Of a DNA stretch of 64,000 bases, positions 36,482-40,111 are shown one piece after another. The stretch lies in contig NZ_CACVCC010000009.1 in assembly GCF_902729355.1 (NCBI RefSeq), positions 1 to 64,000 of the forward strand. The letters run 5' to 3'. Under the pieces are notes generated by a model, which was given only the letters and a program-made list of their open reading frames with translations, was not told the DNA's origin and did no database searches. The translations under genes and the position numbers were made by a program. The stretch is from Streptococcus sp. S784/96/1 (GTDB lineage Bacteria > Bacillota > Bacilli > Lactobacillales > Streptococcaceae). The first letter of the stretch is position 1. Each line of letters opens with the position of its first letter.

Positions 36482-39400
36482 TTAAAATTCTAAACTATGT
36501 ATAATCTTTTCTAATGTGGACTCTTGTATTGTGCTACTTTTCTTTGTCTGATTTCTTTGCACTCCTTTTATATATTTGTCGAAGTCTCCAGATAACTTGG
36601 CATAATTTATGAAACGCCGTTTGGCTTGTTCCACTGTTTGATGAAATAAGTCAGCTGCCACAGTAGGATTAAATTGTTGTAAGGAAGAAAATCGCTCTTG
36701 TTTCATCATAAAATCAATCATTTTATCAAAATTTGGGCGCTTATAATCCAAAATCATCGGATTTCTTCCTTCTTGTTCTAGCTTTGGATTGTAACGGTAC
36801 AAGGACCAGTAACCAGATTCTACTGCTTGTCTTGCTTCCTGAAGACTCTCCTTCATTCCTCCTGCTATCTTGTGAGTGATACATGGGACGTAGGCAATGA
36901 TAAGTGATGGTCCTGGATGTTTTTCTGCTTCTTCAAATGCTTTAATCACCTGAACTGGATTCGCACCACTTGCAACCTGAGCTACATAGACATTACCATA
37001 GGTCATTGCCATCATTCCTAAGTCTTTTTTTATTCCTCTGTTACCTGAAGCTGAAAACTTTGCAATAGCTGATGTCGGTGTGCTTTTTGAAACATGGCCA
37101 CCAGTATTAGAGTATACTTCATTATCAAGTACCAGTATGTTTACATCCGCTCCGCTAGCAAGCACATGATCTAAGCCACCATAACCTATATCGTAGGCCC
37201 AACCATCTCCACCGATAATCCATTGTGAGGGTTTTACAAATAAATCACGTTTTTCGTAAAGTTTTGTCAAGAAAGGTTTTGTCTCATCCATTTCAACAAG
37301 GAGCAAGTCTATCAACTTTTTGCTTCGTGCAATTGTCCCATAGCCTTTATCAATGTTTTCAATCCAGTTATCTATCAGCTCTACCAAAACTGAACTTGCT
37401 TCCTCTTTTGCTGCGAGCATATCAGCAATCAGCGAGTGTCTCCTCGTTTGCGTAGCCATTAACATACCATATCCAAATTCAGCATTGTCTTCCAACAGAG
37501 AATTACTCCAAGCAGGACCTTGCCCAAGTGAATTGGTACTAAACGGTGTGATAGGAAACATCCCTCCCCAGATGGAAGAACAACCTGTAGCATTAGCAAT
37601 CATCATCCTATTACCAAACAACTGAGTTAATAGTTTGACATACGGAGTTTCACCGCATCCTGAACATGCACCTGAAAATTCCAAGAGAGGCTGTTCAAAT
37701 TGTGTATGTGCAATAGTTCCTGGCTTGGCTGGATTTTCTTTGGCACGTAAGGTCATTGAAAAGGCCCAATGAATGGCTTCTTCCTTAAACTTACCTGAAG
37801 CTTCGTCATCCACTTCAATCATCTTTAAAGCCTTGCCTTTGGCAGGACAGACCTTTACACACAGTTCACAACCAGTACAATCCTCAACAGATACCTGAAT
37901 ACGATACATCAGTCCATCTTTTCCCTTGTAATCTCTAACCCTGTAGCCATCAGGAGCTTGATTCAACTCATCTTGTTCAACTAGGAAAGGACGAATGGCA
38001 GCATGTGGGCAGACAAATGAACATTGATTACACTGCACACAAAATTCTGAATTCCACTCTGGTACTTCCCAAGCCGTACTGCGTTTTTCTACTGGCGCAA
38101 TTCCCAAGGGAATATCTCCTGCGACGAGACCATTTTCTATCAATTGACCAACCGACACAGAATTTCCTTCCAGACGATGAACAGGTTGCTGAATCTTCTG
38201 TATATACTTCAAAGTATTGGTTGATGGGGCGTTTTGCTCCTCTCTACATAATTTCCAATCGGCTGGAATATCTATTTTTTTTATAGAAGCAAGGGTCATT
38301 TCAACAGCTCGTAGATTTTGTTCTACGACTTCCGGTGATTTATGTCTATACGCCTGAACAATCTCTTTCTTCATGGCTTCAACTGCTGCTTCTTCCGATA
38401 AAAAGTCTGTTAGTTTAAAGAAAGCCGCCTGCATGCAAATACCCGGTTTCCCATACAATCCTACTTCTTGTGTAATTTTATAGGCATTTATGGTGTAAAA
38501 GCGAATCTCGTTATCAGCCAAGTAGCGTTTGAGTTTGCTTGGAAGTAAGCGACTGAGTTTTTCATGGGACCAGGTGGTATTTAATAGAAATATTCCCCCT
38601 TTTTTTAATCCCTTTACCAAGTCTATTTTTCTTAAATATCCAGGCATGGTAACCCCAACAAAATCCGCTTCTAATATAGAATAAGAAGACTGAATTTTAT
38701 CTCGACCAAATCGAAGGTTTGAAATCGTGAGACCATTCTGTTTTCTAGAATCATAATAGAAGGAACCTTGAATAGTAGAGTCAGAATGTTCACCCATAAT
38801 GCGGATAATTGATTTATTGGCACTAACTGTGCCATCTCCTCCAAATCCCCAACATTTCACTTGGTAAGTTGTTTTCTTTGTCAGATCAATAGAATCTCCC
38901 ACCTTTAATGAAAGGTTGGTAACATCATCTTCTATTCCTATAGTAAAATGAGGCTTTGGAGAAGCTTTCTCCAACTCAGCAAAGATAGCCATTATCTGGT
39001 TAGGTCTCACTTCTTTTGAACCCAATCCATACCTTCCCCCAATGATAAGGGGGTGTCGCTCACTTTCATAAAACGCAGTTCTTACATCTAAGAAAAGAGG
39101 TTCACCTGTGGCTCCTGCTTCTTTGGTTCTATCCAAAACAGCGATAGCTTGAACTGTCTTGGGTACTTTTTCTAAAAAATCTTTTACTGGAAAAGGTCGA
39201 TAGAGATGAACCTGAATGAAGCCCACTTTTTTATTGTTATCTATCAAGTAATCAACAGTCTGACAAATTGTAGAGGATACGGATCCCATTGCTACAATAA
39301 TAGTTTCTGCATCAGGATGTCCATAATATCGTATTAGGTCATAATCTGTTCCACGAAGTTGATTGATTTTTTTCATGTACTTTCGTACAACGTAGGGAAG

Positions 39401-40111
39401 AACTTGATAGTGTCGATTTACTGTCTCGCGCTGTTGGAAGAAAGTGTCTGGTCCTTGATTGGTTCCGGACACCGTTGGATGGTTGGGATTCATTCCTCTA
39501 CCACGAAAGATGTTGAGCGCCTCTTCATGCACTAGAGGCTTGAACTCATCATATTCTAGAACAGTGATTTTTTGTAGTTCATGACTTGTCGAAAATCCAT
39601 CGAAAAAATTAACGAAGGGAAGACTGGATTCTAGTGTTGCTAAATGAGCTACAAGTGACAGATCCATTACTTCTTGAACGGAACCTTCTGCCAACATTGC
39701 AAAGCCTGTCTGTCGTACAGCCATAACATCACTATGATCACCAAATATACTGAGGGCATTTGTCGTTACAGAACGTGCAGCAACATGAAAAACTGCTGGT
39801 AGTAATTCTCCTGCAATCTTGTACATGTTAGGTATCATTAGCAACAATCCTTGAGAAGAGGTACAAGTAGTCGTTAGTGCTCCAGTTTTTAATGAACCAT
39901 GCACGAAGCCAGCCACTCCCGCTTCTGATTGCATTTCAACAACATTTACAGTCTGATCAAATAAGTTTTTTCTACCTTCTGCCTGCCAAGTATCAATCCA
40001 TTCTCCCATTGTAGAGCTGGGTGTAATAGGGTAAATACCTGCAACATCACTAAAAGCATATGCTACGTATGCCGCAGCCATATTACCATCCATTATTTCT
40101 TGATGTGACAT
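36482..40111 (-). CDS. nifJ: Pyruvate:ferredoxin (flavodoxin) oxidoreductase
   Basis: A 1209-residue single-chain PFOR with all domains. The N-terminus has YPITPSSTMGEW. Two 4Fe-4S motifs follow: CVQCNQCSFVCP near residue 690 and CTGCELCVKVCP near 747. The proximal-cluster Cys pair is in GACSGCGETPYV. The TPP site is GGDGWAYDIGYGGLDHVLASG near 970, and DNEVYSNTGGHVSKSTPT follows. It oxidises pyruvate to acetyl-CoA and CO2, reducing ferredoxin or flavodoxin. PFOR is not usual in streptococci, which use PFL or pyruvate dehydrogenase. It lies 110 bases after the last shell gene, behind a weak terminator. Low-potential electrons for CutD are its likely link to the operon. Confidence 0.95.
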   Translation of the reverse strand: MSHQEIMDGNMAAAYVAYAFSDVAGIYPITPSSTMGEWIDTWQAEGRKNLFDQTVNVVEMQSEAGVAGFVHGSLKTGALTTTCTSSQGLLLMIPNMYKIAGELLPAVFHVAARSVTTNALSIFGDHSDVMAVRQTGFAMLAEGSVQEVMDLSLVAHLATLESSLPFVNFFDGFSTSHELQKITVLEYDEFKPLVHEEALNIFRGRGMNPNHPTVSGTNQGPDTFFQQRETVNRHYQVLPYVVRKYMKKINQLRGTDYDLIRYYGHPDAETIIVAMGSVSSTICQTVDYLIDNNKKVGFIQVHLYRPFPVKDFLEKVPKTVQAIAVLDRTKEAGATGEPLFLDVRTAFYESERHPLIIGGRYGLGSKEVRPNQIMAIFAELEKASPKPHFTIGIEDDVTNLSLKVGDSIDLTKKTTYQVKCWGFGGDGTVSANKSIIRIMGEHSDSTIQGSFYYDSRKQNGLTISNLRFGRDKIQSSYSILEADFVGVTMPGYLRKIDLVKGLKKGGIFLLNTTWSHEKLSRLLPSKLKRYLADNEIRFYTINAYKITQEVGLYGKPGICMQAAFFKLTDFLSEEAAVEAMKKEIVQAYRHKSPEVVEQNLRAVEMTLASIKKIDIPADWKLCREEQNAPSTNTLKYIQKIQQPVHRLEGNSVSVGQLIENGLVAGDIPLGIAPVEKRSTAWEVPEWNSEFCVQCNQCSFVCPHAAIRPFLVEQDELNQAPDGYRVRDYKGKDGLMYRIQVSVEDCTGCELCVKVCPAKGKALKMIEVDDEASGKFKEEAIHWAFSMTLRAKENPAKPGTIAHTQFEQPLLEFSGACSGCGETPYVKLLTQLFGNRMMIANATGCSSIWGGMFPITPFSTNSLGQGPAWSNSLLEDNAEFGYGMLMATQTRRHSLIADMLAAKEEASSVLVELIDNWIENIDKGYGTIARSKKLIDLLLVEMDETKPFLTKLYEKRDLFVKPSQWIIGGDGWAYDIGYGGLDHVLASGADVNILVLDNEVYSNTGGHVSKSTPTSAIAKFSASGNRGIKKDLGMMAMTYGNVYVAQVASGANPVQVIKAFEEAEKHPGPSLIIAYVPCITHKIAGGMKESLQEARQAVESGYWSLYRYNPKLEQEGRNPMILDYKRPNFDKMIDFMMKQERFSSLQQFNPTVAADLFHQTVEQAKRRFINYAKLSGDFDKYIKGVQRNQTKKSSTIQESTLEKIIHSLEF

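Follow-up and report, generated by a model that had tools for sequence, protein, structure and literature searches.

The choline microcompartment loci of the GRM1 type (type I cut clusters) encode choline trimethylamine-lyase (CutC) and its activase (CutD), together with aldehyde dehydrogenase (AldDH), alcohol dehydrogenase (ADH), the phosphotransacylase PduL and shell proteins of the BMC-H and EutN kinds. In the passages of a 2019 review that deal with accessory proteins (PMC6325248), PduS, PduT and GrpU are treated as accessory iron-sulfur proteins, PduK being set aside, with GrpU present in about 85% of GRM1 loci and PduS/PduT in about 25%. They are proposed there to transfer electrons to or from the lumen, perhaps to the encapsulated activase, and it is stated that no direct evidence exists of how encapsulated activases become reduced. 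The same passages describe a ferredoxin-like insert in most activases of glycyl-radical microcompartments (GRM), only those of GRM5 being without it. Here we describe a cut locus of Streptococcus sp. S784/96/1, contained in a window of 64,000 nucleotides (the whole stretch of DNA analysed; contig NZ_CACVCC010000009.1, positions 1 to 64,000), in which a gene for a NifJ-type pyruvate:ferredoxin (flavodoxin) oxidoreductase (PFOR) adjoins the shell genes. By a narrow preference, this PFOR is taken to be cargo of the cut compartment, where it would yield low-potential electrons for activation of CutC by CutD in place of the usual iron-sulfur helpers.

The locus lies upstream of the PFOR gene on the same strand and comprises CutC, CutD, AldDHs, ADH, PduL and shell genes (Table 1), the combination of CutC and CutD with shell, AldDH, ADH and phosphotransacylase genes placing it in GRM1. 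It is largely collinear with other GRM1 loci, from which the streptococcal loci differ in lacking GrpU, PduS and PduT, in the addition of PFOR and in the loss of cysteines for auxiliary clusters in CutD. The PFOR gene is separated by 110 bp from the last BMC-H gene (40222-40500), has a purine-rich ribosome-binding site directly ahead of its ATG and is followed downstream by truB and then by a gene read as ribF from its translation. Judged by its translation, the protein is a complete enzyme: the equivalog model TIGR02176 scores 1732 bits against a cut-off of 911 and is matched over positions 3-1166 of 1167, the match stopping at residue 1174. By sequence comparison, residues 5-1174 align with 6cin (a chain of 1171 residues) and residues 7-1168 with 1b0p/7plm. 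The translation contains CVQCNQCSFVCP, CTGCELCVKVCP, GACSGCGE, ATGCSS and GDGWAYD..NEVYSNTGG, which we take to represent the two ferredoxin-type 4Fe-4S motifs, the proximal-cluster cysteines and the thiamine-diphosphate region of NifJ-type PFORs. The predicted activity is oxidation of pyruvate with reduction of ferredoxin or flavodoxin. Like other members of the family (TIGR02176; 6cin, 1b0p, 7plm), it is a full-length single chain with the family's domains, whereas a C-terminal linker with a motif resembling an encapsulation peptide (EP), and a genomic home in a microcompartment locus, set the streptococcal enzyme apart. No second PFOR was found in the window's genome.

The distribution of PFOR was examined in 284 genomes of the genus. 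It was identified in fourteen, thirteen of them with scores over the family cut-off; the copy of genome G275 is broken and its pieces score below it. CutC exceeded its cut-off in thirteen of the 284 genomes, and all thirteen have PFOR at the cut locus, as against one (G084) of the 271 genomes without such a CutC (Fisher p about 1e-21, with the reservation that related genomes are not independent). The original prediction of a full-length PFOR, said to be unusual in streptococci, is therefore confirmed, and the survey that it had proposed of whether nifJ accompanies cut clusters in other streptococci gives an affirmative answer. CutC and PFOR are encoded on one contig in twelve of the thirteen genomes (G275 included), 11-13 kb apart from start to start, and in all twelve PFOR follows the last BMC-H gene. 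The remaining locus, that of G085, is interrupted by a contig break, and BMC-H and then PFOR are seen on one of its two contigs (L107). In the three loci where shell gene and PFOR are farthest apart (L114, L106 and L107), the space between them contains only open reading frames of up to 84 residues, none of them a recognised gene. The PFOR of G084 lies on a 9 kb contig (L119) that also encodes a glycyl radical enzyme and an activase lacking the ferredoxin insert, with PduB-like copies at both contig ends. All fourteen PFORs found in the genus thus sit in glycyl-radical microcompartment loci.

Two further streptococcal loci deserve description. The locus of G275 (L118) is in decay but has kept the tail motif: its nifJ is fragmented, and behind it come an EamA gene and a second glycyl radical enzyme, the latter broken in two. 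In Streptococcus suis NZ_CP135064.1, a sequence labelled as a plasmid, nifJ lies beside eutM and its product is 99.6% identical to the PFOR of G049, with the same tail. This sequence (L218) carries conjugation genes alongside genes of chromosomal type (pyrimidine, glycogen) and that end of a microcompartment locus which bears nifJ; it is possibly a piece of chromosome that was excised or misassembled.

In parts of the bacterial microcompartment (BMC) catalog, an EP is described as an amphipathic helix of about 15-20 residues joined to the terminus of its cargo by a flexible linker. The PFOR tail agrees with this description in having a short stretch at the terminus behind a presumably flexible linker. 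Among the cut-linked PFORs the linker varies in length and sequence, and the last 12 residues keep a pattern (for example DSLEEILKSLDF; STLEKIIHSLEF in the window). Spaced hydrophobic residues of the form h..hh..h occur at the C-terminus of all twelve intact cut-linked PFORs and of none of 49 controls (the PFOR of G084, those of three Tetragenococcus loci and 45 others from the order, which do not cover every PFOR of the 134 PFOR-bearing genomes); the pattern was defined after the tails had been seen, and shuffled tails match it with a probability of 0.001 to 0.011 each. The broken PFOR of G275 retains the motif, ending in EDSLEDLLQSLDF. A similar stretch (..IVREILSAL.., e.g. DNEAIVREILSALRQK) ends the AldDH of all thirteen streptococcal loci. 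An AlphaFold model of the last 425 residues of PFOR shows a helix, a break and, with low confidence, a terminal helix of nine residues. A role of the tail as a putative signal for encapsulation is thus well supported by sequence comparison, and the enzyme itself would accordingly be expected within the shell.

Two candidate counterparts of the tail were discarded. The C-terminal extension of 1b0p/7plm is not its origin, as that match ends at query residue 1168 and leaves the tail unaligned. Within the order, 29 of the 30 PFORs of L076-L105 (all but L104) extend beyond the family model in a conserved, strongly charged C-terminal stretch (DPEAEARRAARRAERAAKR... or a variant of it); the hydrophobic pattern is absent from it.

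In other GRM1-type loci, the gene for GrpU, a BMC-H protein of small size whose pore motif is G.CPQ[NH], lies between those of EutJ and EutN, and in two loci that were read PduS and PduT are encoded between EutN and EutQ (L154 is arranged differently). In the window both slots are empty, since the EutN gene is separated from those of EutJ and EutQ by only 9 and 12 bp; the corresponding distances in the twelve other streptococcal loci are 11-20 bp (EutJ-EutN) and no more than 428 bp (EutN-EutQ). A first regular expression for GrpU matched four of the thirteen streptococcal loci in sequence that does not read as BMC-H (that of the window on the strand opposite PFOR) and was replaced by tblastn. 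By tblastn, GrpU was found in none of the thirteen streptococcal loci, upstream stretches included, in 25 of 30 other loci of the order Lactobacillales and in 13/13 loci of the wider phylum, which makes 38 of the 43 non-streptococcal CutC loci. PduS was identified in 12 of these 43 (12/13 in the wider phylum and 0/30 in Lactobacillales) and in none of the thirteen streptococcal loci. At the level of whole genomes, PduS was unmatched in all fourteen PFOR-bearing streptococci, G084 included (both control genomes were matched), and a GrpU search with no positive control alongside gave 0/14. GrpU or PduS/PduT are usual rather than obligatory in GRM1 loci, and the thirteen streptococcal loci are without them.

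The activase is altered in the same loci. The motif C..C..C...C[PSA], of which the ferredoxin-like insert of activases outside the genus carries a pair, does not occur in CutD of any of the thirteen streptococci, whereas it occurs twice in 40 of the 43 others and once in three; one of these three (L151) has a second motif, C..C..C...CI, which the regular expression does not count. In an alignment of 15 CutDs, the six streptococcal ones have lost cysteine 2 of motif I and cysteines 1-3 of motif II, and show an insertion as well as one new cysteine. Because these cysteines are gone, at least one auxiliary cluster has presumably been lost from streptococcal CutD. The activase of G084 also lacks the ferredoxin-like insert. 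A predicted structure of CutD was not used, as residues 35-126 (the cluster region) fall under a pLDDT of 50.

Quick phylogenetic trees (that of CutC rooted at the midpoint) place CutC of the thirteen streptococci in one clade (support 100), nested in a group in which GrpU is present in each of the 21 remaining members. The cut-linked PFORs likewise form one clade (98), the PFOR of G084 being very distant on a long branch; 34 of the 49 controls were used in this tree, 15 near-copies having been left out. These sequences would be explained most simply by a single event that cost the streptococcal cut locus its GrpU and brought in a tagged PFOR, and by a separate recruitment in G084.

Outside the genus the association was not observed. 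A sample of 395 genomes of the order contained CutC (E <= 1e-200) in 34, four of the genus and 30 others; among these 30, 27 encode a PFOR elsewhere, either on a different contig or 60 kb or more from CutC, and three have none. A sample of 398 genomes of the phylum contained CutC in 14, one being the window's own genome; no PFOR occurs in the 20 kb around CutC in the other thirteen, the rest of these genomes not having been searched for it. An 87-residue PFOR match in one locus (L160) proved to be the ferredoxin insert of that locus's CutD. A wide homolog scan with the window's PFOR as query gave only three Tetragenococcus loci, and the one inspected (L073) has no shell gene near its PFOR.

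These observations can be combined in a model in which a complete PFOR was recruited as cargo into the streptococcal GRM1-type choline microcompartment. The linker and short amphipathic-type motif would dock the enzyme on the shell's inner face, a role also expected of the like tail of AldDH. In the lumen, PFOR would convert pyruvate and CoA to acetyl-CoA, CO2 and low-potential electrons, and the latter would pass to CutD, either directly or by a small carrier (ferredoxin or flavodoxin) enclosed when the shell assembles; both this flow and the identity of the carrier are presumed. Reduced CutD would then generate the glycyl radical on CutC. PFOR would thereby replace the accessory GrpU and PduS/PduT of other GRM1 loci, with which it has in common a place in GRM loci and, putatively, the supply of electrons to an activase in the lumen. 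It differs from them in enzyme family and in drawing on pyruvate instead of NADH or a cluster in a shell pore, so that electrons would arise inside. The acetyl-CoA formed could be used by co-encapsulated PduL, and its supply by PFOR is possible. A PFOR as proposed electron source for a glycyl radical activase has a parallel in the pyruvate:flavodoxin oxidoreductase of E. coli, a cytosolic route outside any compartment. The title of a reference cited in PMC6325248 states that this oxidoreductase takes part in the activation of pyruvate formate-lyase.

The tail, the missing GrpU and PduS/PduT and the altered CutD, taken together, are better explained by a dedicated electron source than by proximity alone. 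The original prediction had suggested a built-in electron source for CutC, which is supported in part: the near-exclusive linkage to cut loci, the tail and the changed CutD agree with this, while three Lactobacillales genomes with CutC have no PFOR. The chances appear evenly balanced that the compartment makes its own low-potential electrons, the GrpU-type route having been replaced and CutD changed as well, with PFOR recruited at least twice (in the cut locus and in the PduB-type locus of G084).

A number of observations weigh against this account. The three Lactobacillales genomes just mentioned show that PFOR is no general need of CutC, and their cut loci have GrpU; none of the 30 non-streptococcal loci of the order contains PFOR in the 16.6-20 kb stretches around CutC. 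Five of these 30 loci (G402, G513, G421, G395 and G569) have neither GrpU nor a linked PFOR, from which it follows that an accessory protein is not always needed; they do not show the EutJ-EutN-EutQ layout, and only G513 has a homolog of the window's shell gene near CutC. As PduS is absent from all 30 Lactobacillales loci, it is GrpU whose loss is particular to the streptococci. The CutC model finds matches, for the most part other glycyl radical enzymes, in 270 of the 284 genus genomes, nearly all of which have no PFOR, and another electron source for activases must therefore exist. In the tail itself, the terminal helix reaches a pLDDT of only about 56-62, the PFOR of G084 has no such tail, and the hydrophobic moment was dropped as a test because cases (mean 0.47) and controls (0.43) were not told apart.

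The question of the carrier bears on the same account. The original prediction had called for a check for ferredoxin and flavodoxin genes, and both a short ferredoxin (Fer4_15) and a flavodoxin were found in all 28 genus genomes searched; these are the fourteen with PFOR and fourteen chosen without it, both carriers being equally present in the latter. No electron carrier is encoded in the window's locus. The C-terminal motif was present in none of 12 ferredoxins and none of 8 flavodoxins from PFOR-bearing genomes, a comparison that did not extend to N-termini. If such carriers are used inside, they would have to be trapped at assembly or to cross the shell; alternatively, PFOR could hand its electrons to CutD directly.

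The arrangement of the PFOR gene is also less simple than expected. PFOR had been predicted to be the last gene of the BMC operon, and it is indeed the next gene after the shell genes on the same strand; a terminator-like hairpin, however, lies between them, so that it is not simply the operon's last gene. By one pattern, written after hairpins had been seen, a hairpin and T run occur at this site in ten of the twelve loci scanned (not in G074 and G275; the split G085 locus was excluded). In nine of these hairpins, selected for their likeness, 98.8% of cells pair, compared with 40-54% for slid partners; the paired percentage and the covariation score were reached by 0/500 shuffles, and the two pairs changed on both sides were equalled by 236/500. 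A hairpin ahead of PFOR suggests weaker or separate expression, and the gene is probably expressed by read-through or from a start of its own. The level of PFOR is perhaps below that of the shell, which would fit a catalytic, low-copy role.

Other explanations of the PFOR can be offered. The enzyme could be encapsulated for the sake of carbon flow, delivering acetyl-CoA to PduL (for acetyl phosphate and ATP) or running in reverse as a pyruvate synthase on acetyl-CoA from choline-derived acetaldehyde. PduL and an acylating AldDH are encoded in the same locus and share acetyl-CoA, and the PFOR reaction is generally known to be chemically reversible; yet bulk flux needs a sink or source of reduced ferredoxin, and none came to light in the window's locus, the only part of the genome searched for it; an ordinary pyruvate formate-lyase is also encoded in the genome. 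The joint change of GrpU and CutD would be left unexplained as well, and this role is considered unlikely. A cytosolic PFOR that is merely co-inherited with the cut locus, its tail being no targeting signal, would be in keeping with the hairpin that parts the gene from the shell genes, with the C-terminal extensions, of different make-up, that many other Lactobacillales PFORs have, and with the tailless PFOR of G084. Against it stand the terminal pattern, confined to the cut-linked copies in the comparison above, and the fact that no PFOR was found outside glycyl-radical compartment loci in the 284 genus genomes; such co-inheritance is held to be quite improbable.

The shell could also serve mainly to shield PFOR in an aerotolerant host, with the reduced carrier serving the whole cell. 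PFORs are, as a rule, oxygen-sensitive (general knowledge) and the tail suggests encapsulation, but 270 of the 271 genus genomes without CutC do without PFOR as well and a protein carrier would need to cross the shell, so that shielding as the main function seems very doubtful. Dedicated supply of electrons to CutD remains the reading that is narrowly preferred here.

The features of the locus are listed in Table 1. Two of its proteins have no Pfam or NCBIfam match (202 and 100 residues), and homologs of both were observed in many cut loci across genera. Directly upstream of the MerR gene lies a gene for a DUF438-hemerythrin-PAS protein (56656-58002), a possible oxygen or redox sensor. The second AldDH reads FQNGILPGAEQ where the first reads FDNGTICASEQ; the catalytic cysteine seems to have been lost by this replacement and the protein is probably inactive; a copy is kept in most streptococcal loci. 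A putatively inactive second AldDH copy of GRM1A/B loci is already recorded in parts of the BMC catalog.

Table 1. Features of the PFOR gene and the cut locus in the window (EP, encapsulation peptide)
Position	Strand	Feature	Remarks
36482..40111	-	PFOR (pyruvate:ferredoxin (flavodoxin) oxidoreductase, NifJ-type)	1209 residues, ATG start
36485..36589	-	C-terminal tail of PFOR, residues 1175-1209 (linker and terminal motif)	beyond family model and 6cin match
36485..36520	-	EP-like motif STLEKIIHSLEF, PFOR residues 1198-1209	pattern comparison, predicted helix
40183..40206	-	terminator-like hairpin, then TTTT	between last shell gene and PFOR
40222..40500	-	BMC-H shell protein, EutM-like	
40513..41220	-	PduL-type phosphotransacylase	N-terminal stretch EDLESLFYKVVDYL, putatively EP-like
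41232..42887	-	acylating AldDH	C-terminal stretch NEAIVREILSSLRR, putatively EP-like
42903..43508	-	BMC-H shell protein with C-terminal extension	
43525..44157	-	EutQ-like protein	below family cut-off
44170..44469	-	EutN/CcmL-like vertex protein	gap to EutJ 9 bp, to EutQ 12 bp
44479..45321	-	EutJ-like protein	
45299..45907	-	202-residue protein	no Pfam/NCBIfam match; conserved in cut loci
45958..47091	-	iron-type ADH	no single curated cut-off reached
47088..47534	-	EutP/PduV-like protein	below family cut-off
47531..47878	-	EutS-like BMC-H shell protein	below family cut-off
47899..48885	-	CutD, choline TMA-lyase activase	auxiliary cluster region altered
48959..51532	-	CutC, choline trimethylamine-lyase	
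51538..52908	-	second AldDH	catalytic cysteine region changed
52915..53543	-	two BMC-H shell proteins	52915-53232 and 53247-53543
53540..53842		100-residue protein	no Pfam/NCBIfam match
53846..54841	-	EamA-family transporter	
54878..55210	-	BMC-H shell protein, EutM-like	
55629..56495	-	MerR-family regulator	

A link between PFOR and microcompartments or Streptococcus appeared in no title or abstract opening found, a search that did not extend to subscription papers or to supplementary tables, including those of the BMC catalog, which may list PFOR. The words 'ferredoxin' and 'PFOR' are absent from the main texts of PMC8217296, PMC4207490, PMC8156839 and PMC6620236, 'ferredoxin' from parts of PMC5311937 and 'PFOR' from the passages on accessory proteins in PMC6325248; parts of PMC4452783 mention PFOR and compartments in separate contexts. 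The tail of the cut-linked PFORs, the lack of GrpU and PduS in streptococcal loci and the loss of auxiliary-cluster cysteines from CutD are described here as new. The electron supply of activases in glycyl-radical microcompartments is unsettled according to the passages of PMC6325248, and a single tagged enzyme that would take the place of the usual accessory protein makes the question testable. If the proposed role is correct, PFOR would join the cargo list of these compartments and could provide a self-powered module for engineered radical-enzyme compartments, and its gene would mark out those streptococci that probably produce trimethylamine from choline.

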